Source: Clostridium sp. HBUAS56010 (lineage in GTDB: Bacteria; Bacillota; Clostridia; Lachnospirales; Lachnospiraceae). From it: a stretch of DNA of 64,000 bases. Shown in pieces: positions 8,222 through 50,763 of the stretch (position 1 is the first letter of the stretch; the number at the start of each line of letters is the position of its first letter). The notes under the pieces are model-generated. The model did not search any database. It was not told the origin of the DNA and saw nothing but the letters and a program-made list of their open reading frames with translations. The position numbers and the translations under genes were made by a program. The stretch covers positions 62,001-126,000 of the forward strand of contig NZ_SULJ01000009.1 of the NCBI RefSeq assembly GCF_007115105.1, given 5' to 3'.

Positions 8222-9268
<1,047 letters not shown>

Positions 9269-9275
9269 TTAGTGT

Positions 9276-15586: not shown

Positions 15587-15824
15587 AACTTGCCTCCCTA
15601 AATGATTAAATGTTGAAATATCAAGATTATTTTATAATATCACTGCTTTAAATCAAATTCTCTATTCTTTCAATTCATATGTAATCATATACTACTATTA
15701 TAAGCAGTATTTTTAATTAAACATTGAATAGGTAAACGCCACTAGAGAAGCAAACTAAAATATGGATGACCCGCTAATAATAGTATATGTTTTTTGATTT
15801 TTCTACGAAAATCTATACAGTAGT

Positions 15825-17003: not shown

Positions 17004-17013
17004 ATAGATTCTC

Positions 17014-22672: not shown

Positions 22673-22687
22673 AGTGCTCTTATCCTT

Positions 22688-23857: not shown

Positions 23858-23859
23858 AT

Positions 23860-25134: not shown

Positions 25135-25136
25135 AA

Positions 25137-27630: not shown

Positions 27631-27676
27631 AATTGTTTTAACCTCTTCTTATTGCTTTAACTCCAAGACTTTTATT

Positions 27677-27706
27677 AGTATAACATATTTAATCGACTTA
27701 GTACAA
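27677..27706 (-). promoter_or_regulatory. Promoter of the glycan assembly operon
   Basis: Minus-strand TTGTAC (27706-27701) and TATACT (27682-27677) have an 18-base spacer, 47 bases before the initiating transferase gene and just after the terminator of the gene upstream. Confidence 0.5.
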
Positions 27707-27764
27707 TCTTCTCCATAACAAAATAGGATGTTATTATTTAAGAATTTATGAATATTTTACCTTA

Positions 27765-27822
27765 TAAAAAATCAAGATAACCAATGAATACCATAATATC
27801 CATTATTTATCTTGATTTTTAT
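27765..27822 (-). terminator. Terminator after the O-antigen ligase-like gene
   Basis: On the minus strand, arms AATCAAGATAA and TTATCTTGATT flank a 26-base loop and are followed by a T run. The loop is long but the stem and T tract are convincing for a rho-independent terminator. Confidence 0.65.
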
Positions 27823-27837
27823 TTTTCTAATTATTTG

Positions 27838-31776: not shown

Positions 31777-31841
31777 GTTCATATAAAACTTGCATCATGT
31801 TAAATTTGAACAACTTTTTAAAATACGGAGGTCTTACTGCT

Positions 31842-34950: not shown

Positions 34951-36759
34951 GTGAGACACAAAAAGATACTCATGCGGTTTACCGCAGCAGCGTTATGTAC
35001 GTTACTTGGATTGTCGGCGGGATTTTATCCTGCTACGGATTCCTGGGCAGCAGGGTATGCACGGATTAACGGTCATTACCAGATGCGGGATGGCACTGTG
35101 CTGGACCAGGTTGTTGCAAGAGGAATTGACGTTTCCCGTTGGCAGGGGAACATTGACTGGACAGCGGTGGCGGCTGATGATGTAAACTTTGTTATGCTTG
35201 GCACACGTTCAAAAGGGGCTGTCGATCCTTATTTCCATACCAATGTTAAAGGAGCTTCTGCGGCTGGGTTAAAAGTCGGTGCTTATATCTATTCACTTGC
35301 TACCACTCCTGATATGGCAAGGGAGGAGGCTGACTTTGTTTTAGATCTGGTGAAAGATTATCCCATCTCCTTTCCCATTGCTTTTGATGCGGAGGACAGT
35401 GCTACCCTTGGAAGTCTTCCCCCGACTCAGGTAAGCGAGATTATCAATGCTTTCTGTGACCGTATTGAAGAAGCTGGTTATTACCCCATTGTTTATGCCA
35501 ACGACAACTGGCTGAGCAATAAGATTGATTTATCTAAGATGAAGCGTGATGTGTGGGTTGCCCGGTATGAAGCAAAGCATAAATATGCCGATCCGATTAT
35601 GTGGCAGGTAACCAGTACCGGGGCAATTCAGGGAATTAATGGCAATGTGGATATTGATTTCCTCTATAAGGACTTAACTCCGAAACTTCCAAAAAACCTG
35701 TGGAGAACCATTGGAGGAAAGAAGTTTTATTATCAGAACTATTCCATTCAGAAGGATTCCTGGATCAATGACGGAACCGGCTGGTATTATATGAATGGAG
35801 ATGGGCTGACTTCTAAGGGATGGTTTGAAAAGGATAGCCAGCGTTATTTTCTTGATGAAACTTCCGGTAAGATGACCACTGGCTGGAAAAAACTTTCTGA
35901 TAAATGGTATTTCTTCAACGGCGGCGGTGCTATGAATACAGGCTGGCTCCAGGAGAATAGTTCCCGTTATTATCTGAATGCTGACGGTTCTATGGCAACG
36001 GGTTGGATTACCCTTGACGGCAAGAGTTATTACTTAAACGAATCAGGTCCTATGGCAACAGGCTGGAAGAATCTGGACGGAAAATGGTATTACCTGTTGG
36101 AAAACGGTGTCATGTCCACCGGATGGCAGGATTTGAACGGAAAACGGTACTATTTAAACAACAACGGAGTTATGGCAACTGGCTGGTTTACAGAAGGAAA
36201 CTCTAAGTACTTCCTGGCAGACAGCGGAGCTGTGACAACCGGTTGGGCAAACCTTGATAACAACTGGTATTATTTCAATACCAACGGAAATATGGCAACT
36301 GGCTGGGTGAATGTTGACGGTTCCTGGTATTATCAGGCGGCTGATGGAAAGATGCAGAAGGGCTGGCTGGAAGATAAGGGTTCTAACTATTATTTAAGCA
36401 CTTCTTCCGGCAAGATGACCGAAGGCTGGAGACAGGTGGATGGTTCCTGGTATTACTTCAATCAGGGCGGTGCCATGGCAAAGGGAATGACCCAGGTAGA
36501 TGGAAAATATTATTACTTAAGTCCTTCTGACGGCAAGATGGCTGTTTCCACTACGTTTGACTTAAATGGAACTTCCTATACTGCAAATGCTGACGGTGTC
36601 TGCACTGTAACACCACAGGAAACCCAGGACGGACAGCAACAGGAAAGCCAGCCGGCGAACCAGAACAACACTGGAGAGAAGCAGAATGATTCTGCTGAGA
36701 CAGCGGCTGAATCCACCTCTCCTTCCGGAGAAGTCGGACCTGGAATCGGGTTAAAATAA
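34951..36759 (+). CDS. GH25 lysozyme with choline-binding repeats
   Basis: A 602-residue secreted muramidase. A signal peptide (about 34 residues, ending SWAAG) precedes a glycoside hydrolase 25 domain (about residues 57-245) with RGIDVSRWQGNIDW, the catalytic FDAED and the closing MWQVTS segment and DIDFLY. About twelve cell-wall-binding repeats fill residues 250-545, and a Gln/Asn/Ser-rich tail ends GPGIGLK. It should cleave peptidoglycan glycan strands while held to choline-substituted wall polymers, acting in wall turnover or remodelling. Start is GTG 34951 seven bases after AAGGAGG. It lies after the terminator of the preceding choline-binding gene, so it may have a promoter in the short spacer that I cannot identify. 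Confidence 0.93.
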   Translation: MRHKKILMRFTAAALCTLLGLSAGFYPATDSWAAGYARINGHYQMRDGTVLDQVVARGIDVSRWQGNIDWTAVAADDVNFVMLGTRSKGAVDPYFHTNVKGASAAGLKVGAYIYSLATTPDMAREEADFVLDLVKDYPISFPIAFDAEDSATLGSLPPTQVSEIINAFCDRIEEAGYYPIVYANDNWLSNKIDLSKMKRDVWVARYEAKHKYADPIMWQVTSTGAIQGINGNVDIDFLYKDLTPKLPKNLWRTIGGKKFYYQNYSIQKDSWINDGTGWYYMNGDGLTSKGWFEKDSQRYFLDETSGKMTTGWKKLSDKWYFFNGGGAMNTGWLQENSSRYYLNADGSMATGWITLDGKSYYLNESGPMATGWKNLDGKWYYLLENGVMSTGWQDLNGKRYYLNNNGVMATGWFTEGNSKYFLADSGAVTTGWANLDNNWYYFNTNGNMATGWVNVDGSWYYQAADGKMQKGWLEDKGSNYYLSTSSGKMTEGWRQVDGSWYYFNQGGAMAKGMTQVDGKYYYLSPSDGKMAVSTTFDLNGTSYTANADGVCTVTPQETQDGQQQESQPANQNNTGEKQNDSAETAAESTSPSGEVGPGIGLK

Positions 36760-36878: not shown

Positions 36879-37820
36879 TTATTGCTGGTTATCCACATTT
36901 TTAGTCTCTCCCACAATATAAATGGGTCTGTCTTTTAATTCTGAGAACAGAATCGCAATGTAATTTCCAATAACACCTACGATTAAGAACAACACGGCAA
37001 ACATAAAGCAGATCAGAACAATGATGGTTGCGTAACCATTGGGTGTACCGACTCTTGCCCAGCTCCATATGGTGTAGACCATCATAAGCAGTCCTAATGC
37101 TACTGCACCGAAACCGGCATAGATTCCTAGCTTTAAAGGAAGGTTGGAAAAACACATAATGGTATTTAAAGAAAATGTAATCAGTTTTTTGATGCTGTAT
37201 TTACTTTCTCCTGCAACCCTTACTCTTGCCTCATATTCGATGGTTGCCCGGTTAAAACCGATATTCTGGACATATCCTCGAAGAAAACGGACCTTTTCCC
37301 TGTAGTTATCTTTCAGCACCTTTGCCGCTTTTTTGGAGATTGCAAAGAAGTCAGAAGCATTGGGCTCAAACTTTACATCGGAAAGCACATTGATCAGCCG
37401 GTAAAAACAGGAGGATGCAAGATTCTTTAACCAGCCTGCGGATTCATTTCTGGTGCGCACCATATTTATAACATCATAGCCTTCTGTAAACTTCTTAACG
37501 ATCTCAGGCAGATATTCAGGAGGATGCTGGAGGTCTGCATCCATGCAGACAATCCCGTCCCCTTTGCTGTAATCAAGCCCTGCAATCATCGCCGCTTCAT
37601 GGCCGAAGTTCCGGGAAAAACTGATGACTTTTACTTTGGAATCTGCAAGAGCCAGACCTGTCAGTACAGACATGGTGCTATCCTGGCTTCCATCATTGAC
37701 AAAGATAAGTTCGTAATCCCAGTCTAATTTATTTAAAATATGGGACGTTTCCTCATAAAACTGTTTGAGAGCCAGTTCTTCGTTGTAGCATGAGACTACG
37801 ACCGATAATGTTTTTTCCAT
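36879..37820 (-). CDS. Polyprenol-phosphate glycosyltransferase, GT2 (GtrB/ArnC-like)
   Basis: A 313-residue GT2 with VSCYNEE, VNDGSQD and metal-binding DADLQHPP in the catalytic domain and two membrane helices at about 230-295. It is paralogous along its full length to the GT2 at 14615-15586, sharing long identical stretches such as the FSRNFGHEAAM segment and the KVRFLRGYVQ segment. It probably makes a polyprenol-phosphate sugar used outside the membrane by the two GT-C-like proteins encoded just upstream. It is the last gene of the second glycan cluster before the terminator. Confidence 0.9.
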   Translation of the reverse strand: MEKTLSVVVSCYNEELALKQFYEETSHILNKLDWDYELIFVNDGSQDSTMSVLTGLALADSKVKVISFSRNFGHEAAMIAGLDYSKGDGIVCMDADLQHPPEYLPEIVKKFTEGYDVINMVRTRNESAGWLKNLASSCFYRLINVLSDVKFEPNASDFFAISKKAAKVLKDNYREKVRFLRGYVQNIGFNRATIEYEARVRVAGESKYSIKKLITFSLNTIMCFSNLPLKLGIYAGFGAVALGLLMMVYTIWSWARVGTPNGYATIIVLICFMFAVLFLIVGVIGNYIAILFSELKDRPIYIVGETKNVDNQQ

Positions 37821-37858: not shown

Positions 37859-39226
37859 CTATTCATGGAAAATACTGTACCCATTTTCTTTTAAAATCGA
37901 CAGTGCGCTTCGCACTTTTTCCCCGCTATCTTCTCTGTTTTTTCGGTACTCAAAATTGTCTCGAAGCTCTTTGTCTGTGAGCTGCTCAAAATCACGGGCA
38001 AGTTTTGCTCTTTTCTCATACGCTTCCAGACGGTAAGGCGCCTTTTTAATCTCAACGTATGTGGTATAGATGTTTCCTGTCAGAAACAGAATACAAGAAC
38101 CACCGGCTGCCAACCGAAGAAATAGATGCTGTCTTTTTTTCTCTTTGGCCAGCACAAGGGCAAAGGTCAGAAGAATTCCTATAATCCCAGTCTGAAATTG
38201 AAGGGCATACCGGGAACTCATTCCATAGTTTTCCCTTAAAAAAAACCATCTGGAAAATAGGATAAGAACATGGTTTAATCCACCGGATACCAGTAAAATG
38301 GCAGGAAATAAGGTCTTTTTGTAGAGACGGTACTTCCAGTTATACCAAAGGGCAAGGATGTAGATGACGATTACCAGAAGCCCCATGATAATAAAAGGAA
38401 GATTCCGGTGAAAGATCTCTTCTGCTCTCTCTCCTTCTATGATCATAGAGGAAAAAGATTTAATAAAAAATCGGACAAAAAAACCAGGGGTGTCTTTTAA
38501 CTGTTCCAAAAGAGAGGTGCCTGCATAGTCTGCATGATCATCCACCACATAACTGTCGCTCCATAAGTATAAAAGTAAAGGGATGAGACCACTGATTCCA
38601 TACAGAGCGTAATTGAGTTTTCCTTTGCCCTTTTTCAGAAGAAAGAGTATTCCACAGGTTCCAATAATGGTTACCGAATAGATTGCACAGTATGGACCTG
38701 CCACCAGCAAAGTAGTCGCAAAAGGTAATGCCACAAGCCTTAAAGAGTCATAAGGTTTCCCTTTTCCATTCCATACCCGATCCAAAACCTCATAGTGATA
38801 ATAGAAACAGGCAAAAGATAAAAAATGAGTCCAGCCGCTTCCATTGGTCAGCATCTCCCATTTGTTCAGGCTGAAAAGTACTGCCATAACAACAGCAAAC
38901 CAGAAAGCAGACACTTTCTGGCACAGGCTGTAAGATGCAATTACCATGCCGGACAATCCCAGTGCAAGAACACCCAGCACCCGGTCAAACATGGTATTAT
39001 AACCAAAGAAAATCACATTTACAATTCTTCCCAGATAATTCAGAGGTATTCTGGTCAGAATATCCGGGACGAAAAATTTATCCGGATTGTATATATCGGG
39101 AAGATAGCTGTTTACCAGACGGATATAATCCGAATAAACACCGTCACAAGACGCTTGAAAGATATACCATAATCCAAATAAGGTTCCCAAAAGGGGAAGG
39201 AAATAATATAGATATTTTCGTTTCAT
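37859..39226 (-). CDS. Polytopic membrane protein, GT-C glycosyltransferase-like
   Basis: A 455-residue protein with about ten to eleven hydrophobic helices and a short charged C-terminus. After the first helix, the external loop carries acidic residues (CDGVYSDYIRL near residue 28), a placement seen in GT-C enzymes that take sugars from polyprenol phosphate. I do not recognise the family by sequence. Gene order, between a polyprenol-P GT2 and another large membrane protein of similar layout, supports a glycan-decoration role outside the membrane. Confidence 0.6.
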   Translation of the reverse strand: MKRKYLYYFLPLLGTLFGLWYIFQASCDGVYSDYIRLVNSYLPDIYNPDKFFVPDILTRIPLNYLGRIVNVIFFGYNTMFDRVLGVLALGLSGMVIASYSLCQKVSAFWFAVVMAVLFSLNKWEMLTNGSGWTHFLSFACFYYHYEVLDRVWNGKGKPYDSLRLVALPFATTLLVAGPYCAIYSVTIIGTCGILFLLKKGKGKLNYALYGISGLIPLLLYLWSDSYVVDDHADYAGTSLLEQLKDTPGFFVRFFIKSFSSMIIEGERAEEIFHRNLPFIIMGLLVIVIYILALWYNWKYRLYKKTLFPAILLVSGGLNHVLILFSRWFFLRENYGMSSRYALQFQTGIIGILLTFALVLAKEKKRQHLFLRLAAGGSCILFLTGNIYTTYVEIKKAPYRLEAYEKRAKLARDFEQLTDKELRDNFEYRKNREDSGEKVRSALSILKENGYSIFHE

Positions 39227-39245: not shown

Positions 39246-41078
39246 CTAATTGGTACTGATATCCGCAACAACACTTAAATGAGTTCTTCCTCTCTGCTCG
39301 GTTGCTTCATGATAGTAAAAATTGCTTTCAAATCTTATTTCCGACGCCACAGAAGGAGGAACATCAAACTCTGCCTGAACGATGCTGGCGCTGATGGGAA
39401 TAACCCGCTCTTCGCTTCCGTTAACCGTTACCGTTATATGTTCAAGTCCTGTTATCTCTCCCGGATAGTAGAATTTAACATAGAGTTTTCCTTCTTTTCC
39501 TGCTGTAATTCTTGCCTTGGCACTCTGATCCAGCCAGCCGTCTTCATAGCAGCCATAGATCCGTTCAAATTTTAAATTGCGGACAAAGTCTGTCACATCC
39601 TGAAACGAATTATGAGCCGGCTCTTCCCTTAGCACCAGCATATTGGGGGTAATCAGACCAATGGAATTCATAGAATCAATACGAGTGACTTCTGTCCCTT
39701 CTGCCAGCCGCTTCTTATCAAAGGTCTTAAAGAAGGTGTCTGCAGTGAACTTACTCATCTTGTAACTGTTTCCAATGATATAAATCTTCTTTCCAAACAG
39801 GTTGTCTCCATATTTTCCATAAGTTTCTTTTGCAAGGGAATTATATCGGTTCTGGGAAGGCCAATAATACAGATTGTCGTATTGGGTCCGGTAAAAAGAC
39901 TCGATCGGGAACATCAGAATTCCGTATAGAAGAAACAGTCCGCAATAGAGAAGGGGTCTTGTTAAATTAGCCCTTGTTTCCTTTTTGGGTACGGTTACAC
40001 CGCACATATAAGAAGCGAAGAGCCATGCTGCTGTCATTGACACATAGATCCATCTGGTCTCCACCCGTATGGTCACGCTGGAGGAACCGATGCAAAGAGC
40101 AATAAACAGAACAAACATACCGGTTATTTTCAGCCTTTGCTTTCTTTGGCTCTTTTCTCTGACTAACACAACAAGAAATACTGCAGTCATAATAAGAAGA
40201 AGTAAGTCTGCCACTACAATAAGAATGCGGACCCACACCGGAGAGGCACCCCAGCTCATTCCGCTTAGATGTTCTGGTCCGGTATTGATTCCAAAGATAT
40301 AGAGAACCTGGCTCATGGCATAGCGGATAATTCCTGTAATCGTAACAGTATCCGCAACGTTAGTGCCTCCGGTTCCGGCAGGAGATATACTTCCAATGGC
40401 AAAATAACGGATCACCTGAACAAGAGCAAAGACTCCGGTCACCAGAAGCCATGGAGACTTCTTCCGTTCCTTTTTCATAAGGAAAACTGCGTAGAAAAAA
40501 GGTAACAGAACCATATAACGCTCATGGATAAAACAGATGCAAAAATAAAGAATCATGGAGACAGGAATCAACCGTTTTTCTTGTTTTTCCTCCGTGAGAT
40601 ACCGGTACAGGCAATAAAAGATTCCGATGGCTGCCCACAAAGCCAGGCTTTCCATCAGACCGTATACCTGACCGATCTGATAATAGGACATTCTGGAAAG
40701 CAGATATAAAATTCCTCCCACAAAACCCATAGTCCATCTCCCGGACAGCCGCTTTGCAAACCGGTATACGGTATAAGCAATGCAGACATTGATCAATATG
40801 TTGATGGGGACAAACCAGCCGATATGCCTTCCCACTACCATTAGCTCCAGCCAGGCAGCCAGATTATAGACAAATCGGAACCGGGTGCTTCCCAGGGGAA
40901 ACACAAATTCCCAAAATGACTGTTCTCCGTAGCAGGACCAGAGATAAAGATCATCCATATACAGACCTTTGATCTCAATGCCTCTGTTTATGAAGAAAGC
41001 AAAAGCCAGTAAAAGTATGACTGCAATGACTTCATCTTTCCATATGGCTTTTTCTCCTATCTGTTGTCTGTCTTTCAT
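39246..41078 (-). CDS. Large membrane protein, GT-C glycosyltransferase-like with extracellular C-terminal domain
   Basis: A 610-residue protein. About eleven hydrophobic helices occupy residues 15-395, with YMDDLYLW in the first external loop giving the acidic pair expected for GT-C catalysis. The last 210 residues are soluble and predicted to face outside, ending in a beta-rich stretch (YVKFYYPGEITG, ITVTVNG) that could bind glycan. It is coupled with the similar protein that follows, 19 bases away, and comes after the heptose genes. Heptose transfer is one possibility, but no substrate can be read from the sequence. Confidence 0.6.
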   Translation of the reverse strand: MKDRQQIGEKAIWKDEVIAVILLLAFAFFINRGIEIKGLYMDDLYLWSCYGEQSFWEFVFPLGSTRFRFVYNLAAWLELMVVGRHIGWFVPINILINVCIAYTVYRFAKRLSGRWTMGFVGGILYLLSRMSYYQIGQVYGLMESLALWAAIGIFYCLYRYLTEEKQEKRLIPVSMILYFCICFIHERYMVLLPFFYAVFLMKKERKKSPWLLVTGVFALVQVIRYFAIGSISPAGTGGTNVADTVTITGIIRYAMSQVLYIFGINTGPEHLSGMSWGASPVWVRILIVVADLLLLIMTAVFLVVLVREKSQRKQRLKITGMFVLFIALCIGSSSVTIRVETRWIYVSMTAAWLFASYMCGVTVPKKETRANLTRPLLYCGLFLLYGILMFPIESFYRTQYDNLYYWPSQNRYNSLAKETYGKYGDNLFGKKIYIIGNSYKMSKFTADTFFKTFDKKRLAEGTEVTRIDSMNSIGLITPNMLVLREEPAHNSFQDVTDFVRNLKFERIYGCYEDGWLDQSAKARITAGKEGKLYVKFYYPGEITGLEHITVTVNGSEERVIPISASIVQAEFDVPPSVASEIRFESNFYYHEATEQRGRTHLSVVADISTN

Positions 41079-41106: not shown

Positions 41107-41742
41107 TTAGAAAAAACGCTCTTCCAGCATCAGGCACAGGGCGTGGTATACGGGAAGGTGCAGTTCCTGGATCTTAAAAGTCTCTGTCTCGGGCACTACC
41201 ACCGATACATCTGCAGATTCTTTTAGCTGACCGCCGTCTTTTCCGGTAAGACCGATGGTTTTCATTCCAAGAGCTTTGGCGGCTGCCATGGCATACATTA
41301 CGTTTTTGGAATTGCCAGAGGTGGAGATTCCAAGAAGCACATCTCCTTTTTTTCCATAACCATAAGTCTGCTGGGCAAATGCCAGATCTCCATCCACATC
41401 ATTGGCATAAGCAGTGGAAAGAGCAGAATGACCGGTCAGCGCAATGGCGGGAAGACCGCCCTGAAGCTTCTCTGCCAGTTCTTTTCCCCTTTGAGGGTCT
41501 GCCTGTATGAGCCTGTCTGCAAATGCTTCTGAAACCTGCCGCCTTTTTACAAAGCCTTTCATAAGCTCTCCTACGATGTGCTCTGCATCGGCACAGCTTC
41601 CGCCATTCCCGGCGATCAGGAGTTTTCCTCCATTTTTATAACATTCCTCTAATATAGTATAGGATTTCAAAATCTCATTCTTTACGCTGGAAAGACTTGG
41701 ATACCGTTGTATCAGTTCATCCAGATAATTCATTGGTTCCAT
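41107..41742 (-). CDS. gmhA: Phosphoheptose isomerase (SIS domain)
   Basis: A 211-residue SIS-domain protein matching GmhA, which converts sedoheptulose 7-phosphate to D-glycero-D-manno-heptose 7-phosphate. Family marks include LLIAGNGGSCADAEHIVGEL, the LTGHSALSTAYANDV segment and ISTSGNSKNV, plus the C-terminal histidine in QELHLPVYHA. Its start, behind GAGGAG, lies 26 bases inside the end of gmhB. The next three genes upstream complete the GDP-heptose route. Confidence 0.93.
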   Translation of the reverse strand: MEPMNYLDELIQRYPSLSSVKNEILKSYTILEECYKNGGKLLIAGNGGSCADAEHIVGELMKGFVKRRQVSEAFADRLIQADPQRGKELAEKLQGGLPAIALTGHSALSTAYANDVDGDLAFAQQTYGYGKKGDVLLGISTSGNSKNVMYAMAAAKALGMKTIGLTGKDGGQLKESADVSVVVPETETFKIQELHLPVYHALCLMLEERFF

Positions 41743-42322
41743 TGGGCTTCTCCTCTCTGGAAATGATATAGTCAGCAGCTTCTTTCATGGTTTTTGCATA
41801 AAAGTCAAAAGCCCTGGTTTTCTCCGTAGCGCTCATGCCTTCACACACTTCTTGTCCATAACCGGTTCCAATTAATATGGGAGTCACACCATAATTTTTA
41901 CCTGCCTGTGTATCCAGAAGCTTATCACCAATCATAAAAGAATGTGTCTTATCCACTGAAAAATAAGCCTCTGCCATCTCAAACATTCCGGTCTCTGGTT
42001 TCCGGCAGTGGCATTTTATTTTATAGGACCCGATTCCATGCACCGGATGGTGGGGACAATAAAAAAAGCAGTCAATGGCTGCCCCCTGTTCTGCCAGACG
42101 CTCATTGAGTACCTGGTGAAGGGCTTTCACATCCTCTTCTTGATAATAACCTCGTGCCACACCTGCCTGATTGGTGACCACAACCAGTTTAAATCCATGG
42201 TTTTTTAAACGGCAAAGGGCCTCTGCTACGCCCGGAAGAATTACAAGGTCTTCCGGGCGGTGTAAATATTCTACCTCTTGATTAATGGTTCCATCACGGT
42301 CTAAAAATACAATTTTGTCCAT
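41717..42322 (-). CDS. gmhB: D-glycero-D-manno-heptose 1,7-bisphosphate phosphatase
   Basis: A 201-residue HAD-family phosphatase with the nucleophile motif FLDRDGTIN at residues 6-14, VVTNQAGVARG, and the GmhB zinc-binding cluster (CPHHP then CHCRKP), ending with IGDKLLDTQAG. It removes the 7-phosphate... more precisely one phosphate of heptose 1,7-bisphosphate to leave heptose 1-phosphate for activation. Histidinol-phosphate phosphatases share the fold, but the neighbourhood fixes the heptose role. It overlaps gmhA and is preceded closely by hddA. Confidence 0.92.
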   Translation of the reverse strand: MDKIVFLDRDGTINQEVEYLHRPEDLVILPGVAEALCRLKNHGFKLVVVTNQAGVARGYYQEEDVKALHQVLNERLAEQGAAIDCFFYCPHHPVHGIGSYKIKCHCRKPETGMFEMAEAYFSVDKTHSFMIGDKLLDTQAGKNYGVTPILIGTGYGQEVCEGMSATEKTRAFDFYAKTMKEAADYIISREEKPNGTNELSG

Positions 42323-42346: not shown

Positions 42347-43417
42347 TTACAGGTTAAAGTGATATTCTCCTCCCGGAATCTTGACTTTGACATCAGAATA
42401 ATCCCAGCGTTTTTCGTCAGTGATCCACGCCTGGGCTCCTCTTAGTTCAAAATTCCAGTCAGTAAGCTGTCCGCCTGCGGCTTCCATACGGGCTGCCACT
42501 TTATGGCGTACATTATAAGGGCAGTATACCAGTAAGAATCCGCCGCCGCCGGCTCCTAATAATTTGCCTCCCAGCGCTCCCGCTTTTAATGCTTCTTCGT
42601 ACAGCTCGTCAATCTGTGGAGTTGTGATCTTACTGCTCATTCTCTTTTTGCTTTTCCAGCCGTAGTCAAGCAGCTTTCCAAAACTGTATAAATTTCCTTT
42701 TAACAGCTCATCTTTCATGGCATAAGCCAGGGCTTTTACTTCGCACATGGCATCAAAGGGGTCTTTCTTTTCATAGTTCTTTACCTGGTCTTTGATAATG
42801 TTGGCAGATACATGGATGTTGCCAGTATAGCAAAGAAGCAGGTTATATTGAAGTTCATGAATGATTTCTTTTTTAATCCGCAAAGGATTGACCACCACAT
42901 TGTTGCGCCCATGAAATTCAATGAAATTGAATCCGCCAAAGGTTGCCGCATACTGATCCTGATATCCGCCGTCAATCTTTAAGTCTTCCCGCTCTACCTG
43001 ATATGCCAGATCAGCCATGGCATAGCTGTCTAACTCCACGCCTTTCCATTTTGCCATTGCAGTCAGAAGAGCTACCATAACAGTGGAGGACGTGCCAAGA
43101 CCTGAACCTGGAGGCGCATCGCACTGCAAATATACTTCACAGCCCTGTTTGATCTCCATGGCTTTTAGTGCTGCTGTTACCAGATCCAGCCTTCCGTCAT
43201 ATACATAGTTCTCTCTTGTATTGTATTTGACTGTCATATCAAAGTCAAGGGAGTGGACAATGATCTGATCATCCTCCCTTGGAACGATGGAACAATAGGC
43301 ATATTTATTAATGGTGCTGCCAATAATGGCACCTCCCTGCTGATCACAAAAAGGAGCTACATCGGTTCCGCCTCCTCCAAAACTTACTCTGAGAGGGGCT
43401 CGTCCTCTGATTATCAT
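42347..43417 (-). CDS. hddA: D-glycero-alpha-D-manno-heptose 7-phosphate kinase
   Basis: A 356-residue GHMP kinase. The N-terminal APLRVSFGGGGTDV is the HddA-type substrate motif. The ATP loop PPGSGLGTSSTV is at about residues 100-111 and the third motif GGKLLGAGGGGF is near residue 290. It phosphorylates heptose 7-phosphate at C1 in the GDP-heptose route. Some close relatives act on fucose or other sugars, but gmhA, gmhB and hddC on either side decide the call. It overlaps hddC by four bases. Confidence 0.92.
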   Translation of the reverse strand: MIIRGRAPLRVSFGGGGTDVAPFCDQQGGAIIGSTINKYAYCSIVPREDDQIIVHSLDFDMTVKYNTRENYVYDGRLDLVTAALKAMEIKQGCEVYLQCDAPPGSGLGTSSTVMVALLTAMAKWKGVELDSYAMADLAYQVEREDLKIDGGYQDQYAATFGGFNFIEFHGRNNVVVNPLRIKKEIIHELQYNLLLCYTGNIHVSANIIKDQVKNYEKKDPFDAMCEVKALAYAMKDELLKGNLYSFGKLLDYGWKSKKRMSSKITTPQIDELYEEALKAGALGGKLLGAGGGGFLLVYCPYNVRHKVAARMEAAGGQLTDWNFELRGAQAWITDEKRWDYSDVKVKIPGGEYHFNL

Positions 43418-44121
43418 ATGGTCACCGTTCCTTTCTCCACATCTTCTATAAACCGGTAATAGTCTTCCGGCACGCCAATATCAATAAAATAACCGTCATT
43501 GACAAAACCGCCCAGTTTTTTTCCCTCTAAAAGCCAGCCTGGAATCATCTCATGCTCCAGAGATACTTTTCCCTCCGGAATCTGTTCCAGAAGGGAACGG
43601 CGGAGATAGTAAATACCGCCATTAATGGTTCCTTGACTGGAAGTGTCTGTTTTTTCATCAAAGGTCTTTAACCAGCCGTCTTCCAAAACTGCCTGTCCGT
43701 AACGGGATACGTCTGAAACTTCTCTTAAGACCAGAGCCATATCCAGATTCCGTTCTTCACTGAGAGACACAAGCCTGGTGTAGTCAATCTGGTAAAAGGT
43801 ATCTGCATTGAGCACAAGAAAACGGTCGTCTGTAATCAGCTTTCCGGCATTTTTAATGGCTCCCGCTGTCCCTAAGAGTTCTTCTTCATAGGCATACGAT
43901 ACTTTTATATCCCATGAGGAACCGTCTTTAAAATATTCCTCTACCATAGAGCCTTTATAGCCTACAGCAAAAACGATCTCTGTAACTCCATGTTTTTTCA
44001 GTTCCAGAACTACATATTCCATAAAGGGTTTATTCCCGATTAATGCCATGGGCTTTGGTCTGTCACTTACAACTGAGCGAAGTCTTGTACCAAGACCTCC
44101 TGCCAGTAAAACTGCCTGCAT
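43414..44121 (-). CDS. hddC: D-glycero-alpha-D-manno-heptose 1-phosphate guanylyltransferase
   Basis: A 235-residue nucleotidyltransferase with AVLLAGGLGTRLRS at residues 3-16, DRPKPMALI, and the metal-binding LNADTF. Context with hddA indicates transfer of GMP from GTP to heptose 1-phosphate, giving GDP-D-glycero-D-manno-heptose. Sequence alone would allow a mannose-1-phosphate or glucose-1-phosphate nucleotidyltransferase. It overlaps hddA (ATGA) and follows the large glycosyltransferase by 18 bases. Confidence 0.88.
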   Translation of the reverse strand: MQAVLLAGGLGTRLRSVVSDRPKPMALIGNKPFMEYVVLELKKHGVTEIVFAVGYKGSMVEEYFKDGSSWDIKVSYAYEEELLGTAGAIKNAGKLITDDRFLVLNADTFYQIDYTRLVSLSEERNLDMALVLREVSDVSRYGQAVLEDGWLKTFDEKTDTSSQGTINGGIYYLRRSLLEQIPEGKVSLEHEMIPGWLLEGKKLGGFVNDGYFIDIGVPEDYYRFIEDVEKGTVTI

Positions 44122-44139: not shown

Positions 44140-47100
44140 TTAACTGAAGTCTTCTCCTACCACACTCCATGCCGCATCAATGCTGTGATATCTGCGGATG
44201 TAGTCCTGTGTATTCCGGCACATCTGTCTGCACCGCTCTTCGTCCTGGTAGAGAGAAAGCACTTCCTGTGCAAATTCTGCCGGATCATCTTTGATTGCCA
44301 TAACCTGCTCTGCTTCCGGAATTCCTTCTGCACCGATGGAGGTGGTGACAACAGGAGCACCGTGATATAGAGCTTCAATGACTTTTCCCTTTACTCCTGC
44401 ACCATAGCGCAGAGGTACTACCACAATCCTGCACCTGGCATACAATTCTGCCAGTTCTTCTTCTGAAACAAATCCTTTGACAATAATTCCATTGCCGGGC
44501 TGTTGAAGCGCTTTTATTTCCTCAGTTACTTTTGATCCTACAATGTAGAAATTCATCTGTAATACGTCCCGGATCAGAGGAAATATCTCCCTTGCAAACC
44601 AGAGAACCGCATCTTCATTGGGGGGATGTGCAAATCCACCAACAAACAAAAGCCCTTCCCTCTCTTGAAAATCTTCCGAAATGTGGGATAAAAATGTTTC
44701 AAAGACATAAGCCACAATTGCTTTTACCGGTATGGAAGGTTCAATCTCATGAATGGCTTCCCGCTCCACATAAGAGGGATAGTAGGAAACCGCAGCTTTC
44801 TTCATCAGACGCAGTTCCATGGATTTCCAGTATTCCGAAGCTTCCCGTTTCTCAGGATTACCGGTCAATTCATACTCTCTGCCTTCCCGTAAAAAGTGAA
44901 GGTCATGTCCATAATAAATCACTTTCATGGAAGTCTTGTTTTTTATGAAGTCTATATATTTTGCCGCAATATGCGGACGATTTAAATAAGCGAAGGAGAT
45001 GTCATCTCCATGATCTTTTAACCAGTCCCAGATCTTTGCCTGAAATTCTTTTCCGTAGAGAATTTCAATCCCCATCTGCTGGAGCGTGGTAGAATAAGGT
45101 TCTTCATGGAGGAAGTTATCCCCAAGAAATTTTACAACGTAACCTTTTTCCACAAACATCTGAAGGTACTGGTAAGTGGTCTTGGAACCAGCATCCCGGT
45201 CATAGGTGGGAACGTAATGGTCAACCACCAGGAGGATGTCTTTGTTCTGGCTTCTTTCCCTGGCACGGAACGGGTCGGGGCTTCCGTTGTTCTCACTTTG
45301 TCTTTTAAATTCTTCCGCCCATTTTTCCCTGAGCTTTAAGCTGTTTTCCACCTGATACCGTTTTAACCCGGTGCCGTTGACATCCGTGCCGTTTGATACG
45401 CCTTCAAAGTGAATGACTTTGGAAAGAGGCTGATAAACCACACGAAGCCCTGCCTTCCGCACTTCAAACGCAAGATCGGAATCTTCGCAGTAAGCGGGGG
45501 CAAAGCGTTCATCAAAACCGCCGATTTTTTTCCACAACTGGGTGGATAATAAGATGGCAGCACCTGAGATGTAGTCCACATCCTTGACATAATTATACTC
45601 TGGTTTTTCCGGATCGTCTAATCGCCCGTAATTCCATCCGGAACCGTCGCTCCAGAGAATTCCGCCTGCCTCCTGAAGCCGTCCGTCAGGGTAGACCAAT
45701 TTGGAACCGACCATACCAATGGTGGAATCGGCTTCAATTAAATTCACCAGACTGGAAAGCCAGCCTTCTGTTACCTGGGTGTCATTGTTTAAGAACATGA
45801 CATATTTTCCTCTGGCTGCTTTCGCCGCCTGATTGCAGTTTCTTAAAAAGCCCTGATTGGTCTCATTTCTGCAGATCACCACATTCTCGGTGAATTTTAA
45901 TAATTCCTTTGTGGCATCACTGGATACGTCATCCGCAATAATCACTTCATAGACCACATCTTTTGTGTGTTCCAATATGGAAGCGAGACAGGCATAGGTA
46001 TAATGAATCTGATTGTATACAGGAATTACAATGGAAACCATGGGATGACCTTCTTTGATGAAACGAAGCTTCCCATGGGTCCGGTACTGCTCCCCGATCT
46101 TCATATCTCCTTCTATTAAGTTCCTGCCCTCTTCTGTGGTATAAAGCCGAAAGGATTTTACCGGGTGAAGAACGGTGTTTTTGGCGTAATAGAAGTACTT
46201 GCGCCTTCTTGTGCCTTCTGGAAAACGGTCGTTGAATATCCGCTTTACTCTTCTGCCTGCCCGGTAGAACAGCGCTTCATGCCGTCTTAACCGGTCTATG
46301 ATCTGCTGCATGTTCTCACAGTCCTGGCGGAGGGTTGTAATAATCATCTCCTGGTTGGTCACATGATTATCGGTAAGACGTTTGATCTCCTGCTGCTTTG
46401 TGATGGTTACATCCTTTTCGTGAAGTTCTGCTTCCATCTGGGCAATTTTTTCATGGGTTTCGTCTATGAGGTCTGAAACCTGATACATGTCTTCTGGAAT
46501 GGCATGGGTTTCGTGCATGTAATTAACCAGATAAATCTGCTGGTTCTCTCCATGAACATATTCCTGGAAATGGCATTCCATCCGGGCATAGGTCTCCAGA
46601 CGGCCTGCTTCCACACCGGACTCTTCCATAAAAGCTTCCAGAGATTCATAAGACAGGATACTCTTATACTGCTCGTAGAAATAATAAAGAACCCGGTACT
46701 TAATAAACGTCACTGGAACAGGAAATGAAAATACCCATTCATAATCCAGGCAGTAAGGACCATCTTCTGTTAACATAATATTTTCAAAAAGGCAGTCAAT
46801 GTTGGAAGTTTTAAATGCCCAGTCTCTCAAAATGGCATCATCCGCATCAGACAGATCACCGAATACACGGACAAATTCCTCTGTCATACGGAACGGGAAC
46901 ATAAAATCATCTTTCACCGTAAAAATCGTGGAAAGCGCATCTTCCATACAGGTTACGGGAACGATTCCATCGAGAACTTCCTTGCCCAGAAGTTCCGATA
47001 AAGTCTCCCCCTTTAAGAATTCAAACCGGGCTGTCCGTCCGTCCGGGCTTATGGAAACTTCCGCTACCTTTAACTTCTGGTTCTGCTCTTTAAGACTGTT

Positions 47101-47256
47101 ATACTTTCCCTCCAGAGACCGGATATGTCTGACTCCTTCATCTCTTATGGCAGTTTTCTCCACAAAAGGAACTCCATCTTCCTCCACCAGACTGGTGCGG
47201 ATCTGGAATTCTTCTCTTCTGGTTTTGTTATATTTTACAAAATTAATCTTTTTCAT
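44140..47256 (-). CDS. Kinase-like / coiled-coil / GT2 / GT4 multidomain glycosyltransferase
   Basis: A 1,038-residue fusion. Residues about 1-245 look like an atypical protein-kinase fold: a lysine in VEKTA (Lys34), a catalytic-loop pattern NIDCLFEN (Asp154, Asn159 with kinase spacing) and a DFG-like DYE (Asp171). Residues about 265-330 are a charged coiled coil. Residues about 405-640 form a GT2 domain with SIVIPVYNQ, ADDVSSD, FLNNDTQV and the later CEDSDLAFEVR. Residues about 660-1038 are a GT4 domain with LFVGGFAHPPNED and VPLRYGAGVKGKVIEA. The ATG at 47256, five bases after GGAG, is chosen over a GTG one codon earlier and overlaps the methyltransferase gene. GT2-GT4 fusions occur in glycan clusters; the kinase-like front recalls the WbdD terminator. 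Whether it is catalytic is open. Confidence 0.82.
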   Translation of the reverse strand: MKKINFVKYNKTRREEFQIRTSLVEEDGVPFVEKTAIRDEGVRHIRSLEGKYNSLKEQNQKLKVAEVSISPDGRTARFEFLKGETLSELLGKEVLDGIVPVTCMEDALSTIFTVKDDFMFPFRMTEEFVRVFGDLSDADDAILRDWAFKTSNIDCLFENIMLTEDGPYCLDYEWVFSFPVPVTFIKYRVLYYFYEQYKSILSYESLEAFMEESGVEAGRLETYARMECHFQEYVHGENQQIYLVNYMHETHAIPEDMYQVSDLIDETHEKIAQMEAELHEKDVTITKQQEIKRLTDNHVTNQEMIITTLRQDCENMQQIIDRLRRHEALFYRAGRRVKRIFNDRFPEGTRRRKYFYYAKNTVLHPVKSFRLYTTEEGRNLIEGDMKIGEQYRTHGKLRFIKEGHPMVSIVIPVYNQIHYTYACLASILEHTKDVVYEVIIADDVSSDATKELLKFTENVVICRNETNQGFLRNCNQAAKAARGKYVMFLNNDTQVTEGWLSSLVNLIEADSTIGMVGSKLVYPDGRLQEAGGILWSDGSGWNYGRLDDPEKPEYNYVKDVDYISGAAILLSTQLWKKIGGFDERFAPAYCEDSDLAFEVRKAGLRVVYQPLSKVIHFEGVSNGTDVNGTGLKRYQVENSLKLREKWAEEFKRQSENNGSPDPFRARERSQNKDILLVVDHYVPTYDRDAGSKTTYQYLQMFVEKGYVVKFLGDNFLHEEPYSTTLQQMGIEILYGKEFQAKIWDWLKDHGDDISFAYLNRPHIAAKYIDFIKNKTSMKVIYYGHDLHFLREGREYELTGNPEKREASEYWKSMELRLMKKAAVSYYPSYVEREAIHEIEPSIPVKAIVAYVFETFLSHISEDFQEREGLLFVGGFAHPPNEDAVLWFAREIFPLIRDVLQMNFYIVGSKVTEEIKALQQPGNGIIVKGFVSEEELAELYARCRIVVVPLRYGAGVKGKVIEALYHGAPVVTTSIGAEGIPEAEQVMAIKDDPAEFAQEVLSLYQDEERCRQMCRNTQDYIRRYHSIDAAWSVVGEDFS

Positions 47257-48025
47257 CACAGCTCCAAATGGTTAAAAATGAATTGGCAAATACCTCAAAC
47301 TGTTTCCCCTCACACACCTCATCAAACATTTTTCCCAGATCAAACCTCAGATATTTGGGATAGTCATATGCCAGAATCGCATGAGTTAAATCTCCTTTTG
47401 CAGGCAGATAAGATTCAGAATATATGGTTACCGGCAATTTGTAATCAGGCATGGGATAATAAAACACTGCCTTTCCCTTCCTTCCATCACTGCCCCGCAG
47501 AAGCTCTGTAAGCTCTGTCTTAGACAGCCGTACCTCATCGGCTGGCGCACCTGCCTGATACTTTAGTCCCAGCCGGTTGCAGACAGCGATAATCAGCTTA
47601 CCACCTGGTTTTAAGAGAGTTCTGGCTCGTTCTATCTGCTGTGCTGCCGGTGCTTTTAAAGAACCAGCAAACACAATATAGTCAAAGGTTTCCTCGGAAA
47701 GAGCGTCAAAGTCTCCATTTACATAATGGATATTGGTCCGTTTCTCATGCCGGAGCCGGTTAAAGGAAAGGTTATTATGACAGGAATCCAGAACCGTTAC
47801 ATGACTTACTTTCCTGCTGTATAAGCCTGTCATGGCACCGTAATCAGAACCGATCTGAAGCAGGGAAGCACCTTTATCAAATTCATACCATTCCAGCAGA
47901 TTCTCACGGATATCCGAAAGTGCATACAGATAATCCAGATTGGGATTCTCCTGCAAAAGCCTTTTTTTGTCCCCCTGATACCTCTGATACAGGCTCCTGA
48001 TCTCAGGACTTAAATCATTCATCAA
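47243..48025 (-). CDS. SAM-dependent methyltransferase
   Basis: A 260-residue class I methyltransferase-like protein. SAM motif I reads LLQIGSDYGAMTG, a variant of the usual DxGxGxG, and is followed by VTVLD, YIVFAG and LLKPGGKLIIA in the expected order. It lies between the second exporter ATPase and the kinase-like/GT2/GT4 fusion, overlapping the latter by 14 bases. That suggests it acts on the growing glycan or on a phosphate placed by the kinase-like domain. The target is inference. Confidence 0.8.
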   Translation of the reverse strand: MMNDLSPEIRSLYQRYQGDKKRLLQENPNLDYLYALSDIRENLLEWYEFDKGASLLQIGSDYGAMTGLYSRKVSHVTVLDSCHNNLSFNRLRHEKRTNIHYVNGDFDALSEETFDYIVFAGSLKAPAAQQIERARTLLKPGGKLIIAVCNRLGLKYQAGAPADEVRLSKTELTELLRGSDGRKGKAVFYYPMPDYKLPVTIYSESYLPAKGDLTHAILAYDYPKYLRFDLGKMFDEVCEGKQFEVFANSFLTIWSCDEKD

Positions 48026-48035
48026 TCCTTCCTCC

Positions 48036-49358
48036 TCATTCTCCTGCTCTGGAGAGTTTTAAGCTTACTTCCGGTTCCATATCGTAGACACCTACGGTGT
48101 TTTTATTGGAGATAACGGTAATGTTTACAATATCGTACAGACGATGATAAACCACATGTTCCCCGCCTTCAAATCCGGTGCAGCTCATGGAAAGTAAATA
48201 CTCCCCACCCTGTAAGGTCATCTTCTGCTTAAACTCCACTTCATATTCATCACCTTTTTTCACGGCTTTTACATCAGAAGCTTCATACATGGTATTGGTT
48301 CCGGTTAAATCCGCTCCCCGCTTGTCCTTGATGGTATAGGTGAAAATAGGAGCTTCAATCTCTCCATGAAAATGAATCCGCTCTTTAATGGAGAAATACT
48401 CTCCCTTTAACAAAAGATTGGTTACGTTGCCACGTTCATCAAGAAGACCGAAATCCACAATCTCCGCCTTTTTATCTCCGTATTCCGTACGGGCAGGATT
48501 CACCGTAAGCTTCTCCTTCATTAGTCCTTTGTGTTCCGCTGCCTGGACTTCTTTTCTGGAAACAGCCTGTTCACCGGAAAAATCATTAAGCTCTTCGCTT
48601 AAATCATCCATCTGATTTGCCAGAATCTTCTTATATAAATCCACCATCTTCCCTGGTTCTCCCTGGGCGATGAAATTCCCTTTGTTCAGTACCACAACCT
48701 GGTCACAATATTTGATAATGGCTCCCATGTCGTGAGTTACCATTAAAACTGTGGTTCCTTTCTGCCGGATCTCATCCATGCGGCGGTAACATTTTGCCTG
48801 GAAAAACACATCTCCTACGGACAGTGCTTCATCCACAATTAAAATCTCGGGCTCCACATTAATGGCAAGGGCAAAAGCCAGGCGGACAAACATACCGCTG
48901 GAATAGGTTTTTACCGGCTGGTATACAAAATCACCGATATCTGCAAACTCTAAGATATCATCCAGCTTGGCATCCATCTCTTTTCTGGAAAATCCCATCA
49001 TGGTACCGTTCATGTAGATGTTCTCAATTCCGGTATAATCCATATTAAATCCCGCACCTAATTCCAGCAAGGCAGAAATAACCCCTCTTACTTTTAAATC
49101 TCCGGCGGTGGGAGTGAGTACACCTGTAATAATCTTTAAGATGGTTGACTTCCCAGACCCGTTGGTGCCGATGATTCCCACCGTCTGTCCTTTTTTCACA
49201 TCAAAAGAAATGCCGTTTAACGCATAAAAATCCTTGTGGTAATTTTTATGGGTGGGGCTTAATGCCTCTTTTAACCGGTCGATGGGTTTTTCATATAATT
49301 TATATATCTTTGTTACATTATTAACAGTTATTGCATTGTTGTTCGATTCTACGGACAT
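48036..49358 (-). CDS. wzt: Polysaccharide ABC exporter ATPase with C-terminal domain (second copy)
   Basis: A 440-residue ATPase: Walker A GTNGSGKST at residues 64-72, signature YSSGMF, Walker B ILIVDE, and MVTHDMG for the switch histidine. Residues about 300-430 form a beta-rich Wzt-like C-terminal domain (FHGEIEAPIFTYTI, TNTMYEASDV). The N-terminal layout YKLYEKPIDRLKEAL resembles RgpD/TagH-type exporters. The ATG at 49358 has GGAGG five bases before it; earlier in-frame ATGs overlap the permease gene and lack a site. It pairs with the permease just upstream. Confidence 0.92.
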   Translation of the reverse strand: MSVESNNNAITVNNVTKIYKLYEKPIDRLKEALSPTHKNYHKDFYALNGISFDVKKGQTVGIIGTNGSGKSTILKIITGVLTPTAGDLKVRGVISALLELGAGFNMDYTGIENIYMNGTMMGFSRKEMDAKLDDILEFADIGDFVYQPVKTYSSGMFVRLAFALAINVEPEILIVDEALSVGDVFFQAKCYRRMDEIRQKGTTVLMVTHDMGAIIKYCDQVVVLNKGNFIAQGEPGKMVDLYKKILANQMDDLSEELNDFSGEQAVSRKEVQAAEHKGLMKEKLTVNPARTEYGDKKAEIVDFGLLDERGNVTNLLLKGEYFSIKERIHFHGEIEAPIFTYTIKDKRGADLTGTNTMYEASDVKAVKKGDEYEVEFKQKMTLQGGEYLLSMSCTGFEGGEHVVYHRLYDIVNITVISNKNTVGVYDMEPEVSLKLSRAGE

Positions 49359-49380
49359 TGAATCCTCCATACTAAGCGGA

Positions 49381-50193
49381 TCACAGCACATCAGAAAAGT
49401 GCGGACGCAGCTTTTTAAATACTTTTAAACCGATGAGCATCATAACAATGGTTACAATCCAGAAATAAAGCCCAAGAGTTGGTCTTTCCACCATCCAGCT
49501 GCCGGTCAGCATACTGTCTCTGTAACCTGCTACAATATAATAAAATGGGTTTAACTTTAAGAGCACAGGCAGCCAGGATGGAATAGAAGGAAACATCTCC
49601 GGTGCCCACATAATCGGCACCATCCACATTCCAAACTGCAGACATATGCCAATGATCTGAGCCATATCTTTAAAAAACACATGAACAGCACTGGTAAAAT
49701 AAACCATAGCCAGAGAAAACATGGAACTGGCAAAGGTGTAGTAAATAATCTGAACCCAGCTGATCTTTGGCATCACACCATAGCAGAGGAATACCACAAT
49801 CATGATGAGGGCAAAGATTCCGTGAACCATCAGACAGGAGATGGTTTTAATAACCGGAAGAATCTCCACCTGAAACACCACTTTTTTCACCAGATAATTA
49901 TATTCCTGCAAAGAGCCTGTTCCCATGTTTAAGACTTCACTGAAATAAAACCAGGGCACAATGCCTGGGATCAGCCACAAAACATAGGGGTAGTCCGGCA
50001 CCGGGGGAACACTTTTAAATCCCATCTGAAAGACAAAAAAGTATACCAGTACCGTTGCCATGGGCTGTAAAAACATCCAGGCAATCCCAAAGTAAGAGCC
50101 TACAAACCGTTTTTTAAAATCTGCTTTTGATAAATCCAGAATCAGTTTTCTTTTTATAAAAATTTCTTTTAATAAGGAAACCAGATAGTTCAT
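49381..50193 (-). CDS. wzm: Polysaccharide ABC exporter permease (second copy)
   Basis: A 270-residue ABC-2 type permease with about six helices and the family segments LSKADFKKRFVGSYFGIAW and FLQPMATVLVYFFVFQ near the N-terminus. It is of the RgpC/TagG/Wzm kind. It forms an exporter with the next gene and is distinct from the first copy at 21896-22672 (different length and motifs). It follows rmlC by 15 bases. Confidence 0.92.
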   Translation of the reverse strand: MNYLVSLLKEIFIKRKLILDLSKADFKKRFVGSYFGIAWMFLQPMATVLVYFFVFQMGFKSVPPVPDYPYVLWLIPGIVPWFYFSEVLNMGTGSLQEYNYLVKKVVFQVEILPVIKTISCLMVHGIFALIMIVVFLCYGVMPKISWVQIIYYTFASSMFSLAMVYFTSAVHVFFKDMAQIIGICLQFGMWMVPIMWAPEMFPSIPSWLPVLLKLNPFYYIVAGYRDSMLTGSWMVERPTLGLYFWIVTIVMMLIGLKVFKKLRPHFSDVL

Positions 50194-50208: not shown

Positions 50209-50763
50209 CTAAAATTTAAACGTTTCCCGGATTCCGCTCCACTTCTGATCCTTCTCAGAAATAATCAGCTCCATACCTTCCTCAATGGGCCATTCAATGC
50301 CAATCTCCGGATCGCTCCATAAGATTCCGCCTTCATCACCTGGATGGTAAAAATCCGTACATTTATAAGCAAATTCTGCTTCGTCAGAAAGGACTACAAA
50401 GCCGTGGGCAAATCCTTCCGGAATATAGAACTGCTTTTTATTCTCTGCGGAAAGTTCCACGCCAAACCACTTGCCGTAAGTTTTAGAAGAAGAACGCAGG
50501 TCCACAGCCACATCAAATACGTTACCTCTTACAACGCGGACTAATTTACCCTGTGGGAATTCTTTCTGAAAATGAAGTCCCCGAAGAACTCCTTTGACGG
50601 ACATGGACTGGTTGTCCTGAACAAATACCATATGGAGGCCAGCCTCTTTAAAGTCATTCTGGTTATACGTCTCCATAAAATAACCTCTGGAATCCGGAAA
50701 TACCGTTGGTTCAATTACATATAATCCCTCTATCTCGCAGGGTGTTACTTTTATCTTTCCCAT
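50209..50763 (-). CDS. rmlC: dTDP-4-dehydrorhamnose 3,5-epimerase
   Basis: A 184-residue cupin enzyme with EPTVFPDSRGYFMET, the catalytic histidine in LRGLHFQ (about residue 62), KLVRVVRGNVFDVAVDLR and PEGFAHGF, all typical of RmlC. It makes dTDP-4-dehydro-L-rhamnose. RmlA, RmlB and RmlD are not in the window, so the rest of the pathway must be elsewhere. It is the first gene of the second glycan cluster, with a TAGAAT -10-like box at about 50815 but no clear -35. Its position suggests L-rhamnose in the glycan exported by the following Wzm/Wzt. Confidence 0.95.
   Translation of the reverse strand: MGKIKVTPCEIEGLYVIEPTVFPDSRGYFMETYNQNDFKEAGLHMVFVQDNQSMSVKGVLRGLHFQKEFPQGKLVRVVRGNVFDVAVDLRSSSKTYGKWFGVELSAENKKQFYIPEGFAHGFVVLSDEAEFAYKCTDFYHPGDEGGILWSDPEIGIEWPIEEGMELIISEKDQKWSGIRETFKF

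Follow-up and report, generated by a model that had tools for sequence, protein, structure and literature searches.

This locus raises the question of what a kinase-like domain does in a protein that also carries two glycosyltransferase domains. The 64,000-nucleotide stretch of Clostridium sp. HBUAS56010 (Bacillota, Lachnospiraceae) analysed here (contig NZ_SULJ01000009.1, from here on called the window) contains on its minus strand an uninterrupted open reading frame (ORF) of 1039 amino acids with a GTG start codon (44140..47259; 1038 amino acids when counted from the second codon, ATG), in which a kinase-like domain, a probable coiled coil and glycosyltransferase domains of families GT2 and GT4 follow each other. 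The start of this gene shares 17 bases with the ORF of a class I methyltransferase-like protein of 260 amino acids with a TTG start codon (47243..48025, minus strand; Methyltransf_25 at 1.1e-7, above cut-off), which is thus the separate, overlapping gene described in a first-pass annotation of this DNA. We consider it likely, from sequence comparisons, that the 1039-amino acid protein of this member of the Bacillota is a glycan polymerase which carries its own chain-terminating kinase and whose methyltransferase partner has split off as a separate gene, and the idea of that annotation that terminator and polymerase are combined in one molecule is still the best reading of the locus.

The kinase-like domain comprises residues 1-250 (46510..47259, minus strand), with Lys35, Asp155, Asn160 and Asp172, then Glu174-Trp175; counted from the ATG codon these first four are the Lys34, Asp154, Asn159 and Asp171 on which the first-pass annotation based its proposal of a kinase fold. 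Residues 1-250 match no Pfam family, and a Pfam search with 39 members of the kinase-domain alignment gave no family better than E = 0.012. The six residues are invariant in all 41 sequences of the first search round, and after addition of distant forms 116, 118, 119, 117, 117 and 116 of 119 rows, respectively, retain them; the conservation of the Lys, Asp, Asn and Asp is more than chance, and the kinase-like character claimed for the domain holds up in its relatives. The ratio of nonsynonymous to synonymous substitutions (dN/dS) of the kinase is 0.05-0.12 in close pairs (8 of 10 computable). The nearest named relatives belong to Lacrimispora and kin, with 68-77% identity (16 top rows), and several of the named hosts are presumably gut bacteria. 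With a query spanning kinase and coil (residues 1-320) and a limit of E = 1e-3, 151 of 299 genomes sampled from the same family, this genome among them, gave a match, although the weakest of these may be matches to the coil only because the query spans the coil too; across the phylum, at 1e-6, just 9 of 398 sampled genomes (again counting this one) had a kinase-domain match, and a tblastn search of plasmids with residues 1-320 gave no match. When the kinase profile was compared with APH using hhalign, the Asp, Asn and Asp of the motif were aligned (Prob 85.8, E = 5.3e-6), and the trimmed alignment gave Prob 75.8 with a score of 42.9, against a best score of 20.0 in 200 column shuffles; the resemblance to APH kinases is moderate only.

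A stronger tie is to the terminator of Klebsiella pneumoniae O7, ORF6, which the main text of PMC11231755 describes as methyltransferase-kinase-coil-GT2-GT2, phosphorylating and then methylating in vitro, with the D441A mutant inactive. The fused methyltransferase-kinase part of one Lachnospiraceae-type locus (L042) was compared with plasmids by tblastn and matched six records, two of them well (4e-8 and 3e-7) and both in the methyltransferase part: a 1457-amino acid protein of Pseudomonas asturiensis (P0002) and a 649-amino acid protein of Citrobacter braakii, which share 42.7% identity over 96% of their first 570 residues and whose genes each directly follow ATP-binding cassette (ABC) permease and ABC ATPase genes. 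The other four matches were weak (E 1 to 3), among them an Allorhizobium plasmid record, the gene table of which lists no ABC exporter beside the match. P0002 ends in two GT2 modules and has Y28, Y66, G91, G93, E112 and Y158 at the exact positions that the main text of PMC11231755 gives for these residues of O7 ORF6; because of these residues, modules and ABC neighbours it is treated here as ORF6-type, and the catalytic D441 of O7 would correspond to D443 in P0002. The Citrobacter gene is located on a predicted conjugative plasmid (pF217-3; our locus L188) within an O-antigen-like cluster of dTDP-rhamnose genes, ABC permease and ATPase genes and the O7-type methyltransferase-kinase gene.

Profiles of 104 Lachnospiraceae-type and seven O7-type kinase rows aligned over 218 columns (hhalign, Prob 98.8, E = 5.4e-17), with the residues of the D-x4-N ... 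D-x-E-W motif common to both, and a bridging protein (L197) matches the kinase profile at 6e-40 as well as the O7-type query at 3e-46. Similarly, the methyltransferase family profile (A2) matches the N-termini of the O7-type proteins P0002 and P0003 at about 1e-48, so that a homologous methyltransferase is fused to or paired with the kinase in both groups. On these profile comparisons the kinase of the window is homologous to that of proteins matching the O7 ORF6 residue positions, a statement that does not extend to the Klebsiella sequence itself. The O7-type query also matched 16 of the 398 phylum genomes (own included) at 1e-5, some as split forms, and five of six such loci for which wider context was inspected have Wzm and Wzt relatives upstream, the sixth, on a 6.2-kb contig, being without them. 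The first-pass annotation had seen the parts as those of WbdD redistributed; descent from WbdD is not supported, since the relatives found are of the O7 ORF6 type, the kinase of which its authors set apart from that of WbdD in both sequence and structure (PMC11231755, main text), and for the same reason WbdD was rejected as the nearest relative. Kinase-profile searches of the PDB matched no WbdD chain, a result which carries no weight on this kinship.

The kinase-like domain is followed by a probable coil or spacer at residues 256-334 (46258..46494), 79 residues without Pro or Gly in which the heptad-period signal exceeds 2000 of 2000 shuffles (residues 258-345) or 1996 of 2000 (residues 257-330). 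Behind it lies a basic segment of about residues 335-375 (46135..46257), with a net charge of +11 over residues 331-375 and of +6 to +14 in the corresponding stretch of 76 orthologues, a charge that would allow contact with the membrane surface as a possible role. The GT2 domain (about residues 409-640, 45340..46035; PF00535 at 1.8e-27, residues 409-533) and the GT4 domain (about residues 681-1039, 44143..45219; PF13692 at 2.3e-26, residues 869-1006), all again on the minus strand, are the only Pfam families above cut-off in the protein, and the earlier assignment of a coil, GT2 and GT4 to the same polypeptide as the kinase-like part was correct, with the coil still a probable one. As expected of an O7 ORF6-type protein, the predicted coil thus stands between terminator and polymerase. 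Both anchor patterns were found in 76 proteins, namely the window protein and 75 of the 84 loci with kinase, coil, GT2 and GT4 in one ORF, and in 72 of these 76 D-x-E-W and the start of GT2 lie 230-235 residues apart. Over the 84 loci, the median identity to the window falls from 86% in GT2 (residues 405-650) and 71% in GT4 to 55% behind the coil, 46% in the kinase and only 36% in the coil (residues 251-345). Since over long times the length of the coil is better preserved than its sequence, a spacer or ruler would fit, the role that the main text of PMC11231755 describes for WbdD and WbbB.

The first-pass annotation had proposed a search for co-occurrence of the gene with the methyltransferase and Wzt, and this was done in 120 loci selected solely for their kinase domain. 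Forty of these are same-family matches, both the best and weaker ones from across the range, and the other 80 are the best of a set of 254; 107 of the 120 loci are distinct and were counted and 13 are repeats. Kinase and methyltransferase share one ORF in 37 loci and are adjacent in 70, thus occurring together in 107 of 107; a methyltransferase was taken as adjacent if its same-strand match ends at most 620 bases within the kinase ORF or at most 200 bases ahead of its start, interrupted genes (L130) included. A Wzt gene is located upstream within 3.5 kb in 105 of the 107 loci, the exceptions being L059 and L064. In L064 a 556-amino acid stand-alone methyltransferase-kinase is encoded (8232-9902, plus strand), with no Wzt detected nearby; this is a possible minimal form. 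With heptose-nucleotide genes directly downstream in the window, the kinase might instead decorate sugars along the chain, such as heptose, and not cap its end, but an hddA relative is present in only 48 of the 107 loci (a lower bound, as some contigs end early) and gmhA in 50, far from the constancy of methyltransferase and Wzt, and the O7 ORF6-type homologue caps chains (PMC11231755, main text). Decoration along the chain is accordingly very improbable, and a heptose kinase of the repeat was rejected as the principal explanation on the same hddA count.

With regard to the two states of the methyltransferase, fused and split forms alternate on a 119-row tree, with 10 parsimony changes, at least five of them forced by starred branches; this tree is from a quick search, with 35 of 116 inner branches open and some long branches. 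The O7-type rows are all fused, and we infer from this that the split in the lineage of the window is most likely a fission. Alignment A1 is without loci L043 and L047, alignment A2 without L041 (whose methyltransferase ORF the ORF filter had removed), L043, L047 and L075, and the 104-row kinase set and the 119-row tree are without the repeats and L043, L047, L092 and L130, which are interrupted or contain an insert. In L092 (Lacrimispora xylanisolvens ASCUSBR21) the interrupted kinase ORF measures 201 amino acids and does not include the matches to coil, GT2 and GT4; sequencing quality may be the cause.

Several observations weigh against a built-in kinase terminator with a methylating partner, and these concern the kinase fold, the loci and spacer, and the methyltransferase. 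With regard to the fold, the tie of the window domain to known kinases is moderate as judged from the profiles: one of 10 untrimmed APH column shuffles gave a spurious Prob of 99.1 over 11 columns (in our reading an artefact of gap-rich columns), the O7-type kinases alone give Prob 3.7 against APH, and the aligned Lys is replaced in three of seven O7-type rows (by H, R and R). In sequence searches of the PDB no kinase reached an E-value of any use (JAK1 chains from 0.30 upwards, and corramycin phosphotransferase 0.14 with a single-sequence query), and profile A4 likewise found no kinase there, with a nucleolar GTP-binding protein as its top match (0.0012). As no kinase of solved structure emerged as an evident relative by sequence, the domain could be a pseudokinase that transfers no phosphate and serves to bind the chain or to recruit partners, but with the Lys, Asp, Asn and Asp each kept in at least 116 of 119 rows this is the least credible of the explanations considered. 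With regard to the loci, Wzm was detected in only 63 of the 107, and in the two loci without it that were inspected a ribonucleotide reductase gene is located upstream of Wzt (L042) or two ORFs without a Pfam family are found (L040). Four of the 76 spacers, of 239, 240, 274 and 275 residues, fall outside the common range, and three loci (L061, L064 and L075) carry the kinase without a run of 35 residues free of Pro and Gly behind it. The coil has a dN/dS of 0.02-0.06 in close pairs (7 of 10) and is thus at least as constrained as the kinase, which suggests that it is more than a mere length-keeping spacer.

The methyltransferase is the part for which an alternative deserves most attention. Motif I for binding of S-adenosylmethionine (SAM) reads QIGSDYG in the window protein, with Q57 for the E/D and D61 for the second Gly of E/DxGxGxG, so that it lacks the canonical motif of O7 ORF6-type terminators, which is present in relatives with, for example, EIGSGCG (11 of 110 rows). 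The Asp at the column of the second Gly is found in 58 of the 84 loci with kinase, coil, GT2 and GT4 in one ORF vs 2 of the 23 others, and the columns of the O7-type Y28 and Y158, both of which the O7 model counts among its SAM-binding residues (PMC11231755, main text), are gaps in the window protein. The atypical motif in this subgroup makes it possible that only phosphate is added: the kinase would terminate the chain, the cap would be phosphate (or something else), and the methyltransferase-like partner would be structural or act elsewhere, an explanation which retains the terminator and differs in the cap. Against it, of 110 methyltransferase rows 106 retain the first Gly, 108 the third Gly and 106 an acidic residue in motif II, Pfam methyltransferase families match above cut-off, and dN/dS is 0.07-0.16 in close pairs (9 of 10 computable, some with saturated dS). 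Both methyltransferase and kinase appear to be under purifying selection, and a decaying methyltransferase is unlikely given the low dN/dS in these nine pairs, the saturation in some of them included. Some active methyltransferase families also lack the second Gly, and hence the enzyme may still be active despite its atypical motif. We regard the phosphate-only cap as the main competitor and still as unlikely; as the motif is atypical yet the other residues are conserved and dN/dS is low, methyl phosphate and phosphate would be two versions of the cap.

Returning to the kinase-terminated polymerase with its methyltransferase partner, the domain order, kinase-like family, O7-type homology, constant linkage and near-constant spacer are the observations from which we infer catalysis, reaction order, ruler function and the identity of cap and sugars as follows. 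The C-terminal GT2 and GT4 domains would extend a lipid-linked chain, for which the neighbouring genes suggest L-rhamnose and D-glycero-D-manno-heptose as candidate sugars. The coil would keep the N-terminal kinase at a fixed distance, so that in this proposal a chain has to attain sufficient length before its non-reducing end meets the kinase, is phosphorylated and ceases to grow. The overlapping methyltransferase probably methylates the terminal phosphate, and the C-terminal domain of Wzt probably recognises the finished end, after which Wzm and Wzt would export the chain. A more speculative extension, to which we give a low probability, is that this is a widespread GT2-GT4 polymerase of Lachnospiraceae with its own chain-terminating kinase, in the largest subgroup of which the methyltransferase has lost the classic SAM motif, leaving a plain or unusually modified phosphate cap that is read by a matching Wzt tail; such a chain end was not found described for this pathway in the literature searched. 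A kinase-type terminator in the Bacillota would extend this logic beyond Gram-negative O antigens, give a likely function to a domain absent from Pfam, and predict a phosphate-bearing end on the surface glycan of many Lachnospiraceae, while the recurrent joining and separation of methyltransferase and kinase in nature offers a test of how capping, polymerisation and export are coupled.

The surrounding genes, all on the minus strand, form an operon-like row. It starts with an RmlC-like dTDP-4-dehydrorhamnose 3,5-epimerase (50209..50763; PF00908 at 1.7e-76), the exporter membrane protein Wzm (49381..50193; ABC2_membrane at 3.4e-11) and the exporter ATPase Wzt (48036..49391; ABC_tran at 2.5e-23), whose C-terminal domain (Wzt_C at 6.5e-41) is the glycan-binding tail previously noted; adjoining Wzm and Wzt genes with this domain mark ABC transporter-dependent glycan assembly. 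After the methyltransferase-like and 1039-amino acid proteins follow an HddC-like nucleotidyltransferase (43414..44121; NTP_transferase at 5.6e-38, NCBIfam HddC as top match with 197.5 bits, cut-off 300), an HddA-like GHMP kinase (42347..43417; NCBIfam HddA as top match with 294 bits, cut-off 600), a GmhB-like heptose bisphosphate phosphatase (41717..42322; NCBIfam PRK08942 with 181.7 bits, above the cut-off of 178) and a GmhA-like sedoheptulose-7-phosphate isomerase (41107..41742; SIS_2, NCBIfam TIGR00441 as top match with 154.9 bits, cut-off 209), where HddC, HddA and GmhA are termed "-like" because their NCBIfam top matches fall under the cut-offs. The row continues with two proteins without a family above cut-off, which we read as membrane proteins from their sequences (39246-41078 and 37859-39226), and a GT2 protein (36879-37820; PF00535 at 3e-29), which we take to be of the DPM/GtrB kind. 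A megablast search of plasmids with 36.8-51.0 kb of the window gave no match.

A further glycan cluster of the ABC-dependent kind, low in GC (28-36%), is located at 14615-29424 on the minus strand, with a Wzy_C ligase-like protein, a Bac_transf initiator, several GT4 proteins, Wzm, and Wzt with Wzt_C, followed by a 496-amino acid protein with a C-terminal methyltransferase domain (residues about 295-456), a candidate methyltransferase-only terminator. The whole genome has just two places with Wzt_C and two with Bac_transf, all on the contig of the window. Between the clusters, a 623-amino acid fusion of winged helix-turn-helix, nucleotidyltransferase and APH/choline kinase domains (31797-33668, plus strand), presumably LicC-LicA-like, is located near several choline-binding-repeat proteins, one of which has a GH25 domain (34951-36759), which together suggests choline on the cell surface.

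Comparison with known systems places the window protein closest to K. pneumoniae O7 ORF6, with which it shares the order of methyltransferase, kinase, coil and glycosyltransferase modules in an ABC exporter locus, and homologous methyltransferase and kinase families as tested via proteins matching the published positions and not via the Klebsiella sequence. It differs in that its methyltransferase is encoded by an overlapping gene of its own (other Lachnospiraceae have the fused form), in having a GT2-GT4 instead of a GT2-GT2 polymerase, in leaving no room between kinase and coil for the carbohydrate-binding module described in O7, in its atypical SAM motif, and in its host. Orthologues of O7 ORF6 are reported from alpha- and gammaproteobacteria and cyanobacteria, with one archaeal homologue, in the main text of PMC11231755, in which the words Gram-positive and Firmicutes are absent. 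Searches of the open-access literature, judged by titles and the start of abstracts, brought up no Gram-positive kinase-type terminator, a search for the structure of a bolteae polysaccharide returned nothing relevant, and key words in the main text of a paper on a C. difficile S-layer glycan include an ABC exporter and neither a kinase nor a methyltransferase. With WbdD of Escherichia coli O9a and K. pneumoniae O3 the locus shares the logic of methyltransferase, kinase and coil and an ABC exporter with a glycan-binding Wzt, whereas WbdD has no glycosyltransferase domains (PMC3482155), and its kinase, set beside that of the window by description and not by sequence, resembles eukaryotic kinases. 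WbbB of K. pneumoniae O12 likewise has terminator, coil and polymerase in one polypeptide, its terminator being a glycosyltransferase for 3-deoxy-D-manno-octulosonic acid and not a kinase (PMC11231755, main text). WsaE of Geobacillus stearothermophilus, also Gram-positive and dependent on Wzm-Wzt, has a methyltransferase terminator fused to two glycosyltransferase domains and, compared by description, differs in its cap, a 2-O-methyl group on rhamnose, with no kinase mentioned in the available part of PMC2943079. The arrangement is thus less novel than the first-pass annotation implied: terminator-polymerase fusions were already known from O7 ORF6, O12 WbbB and Geobacillus WsaE, and what is new here is the host, the split arrangement, the GT2-GT4 polymerase and possibly an altered methyltransferase.

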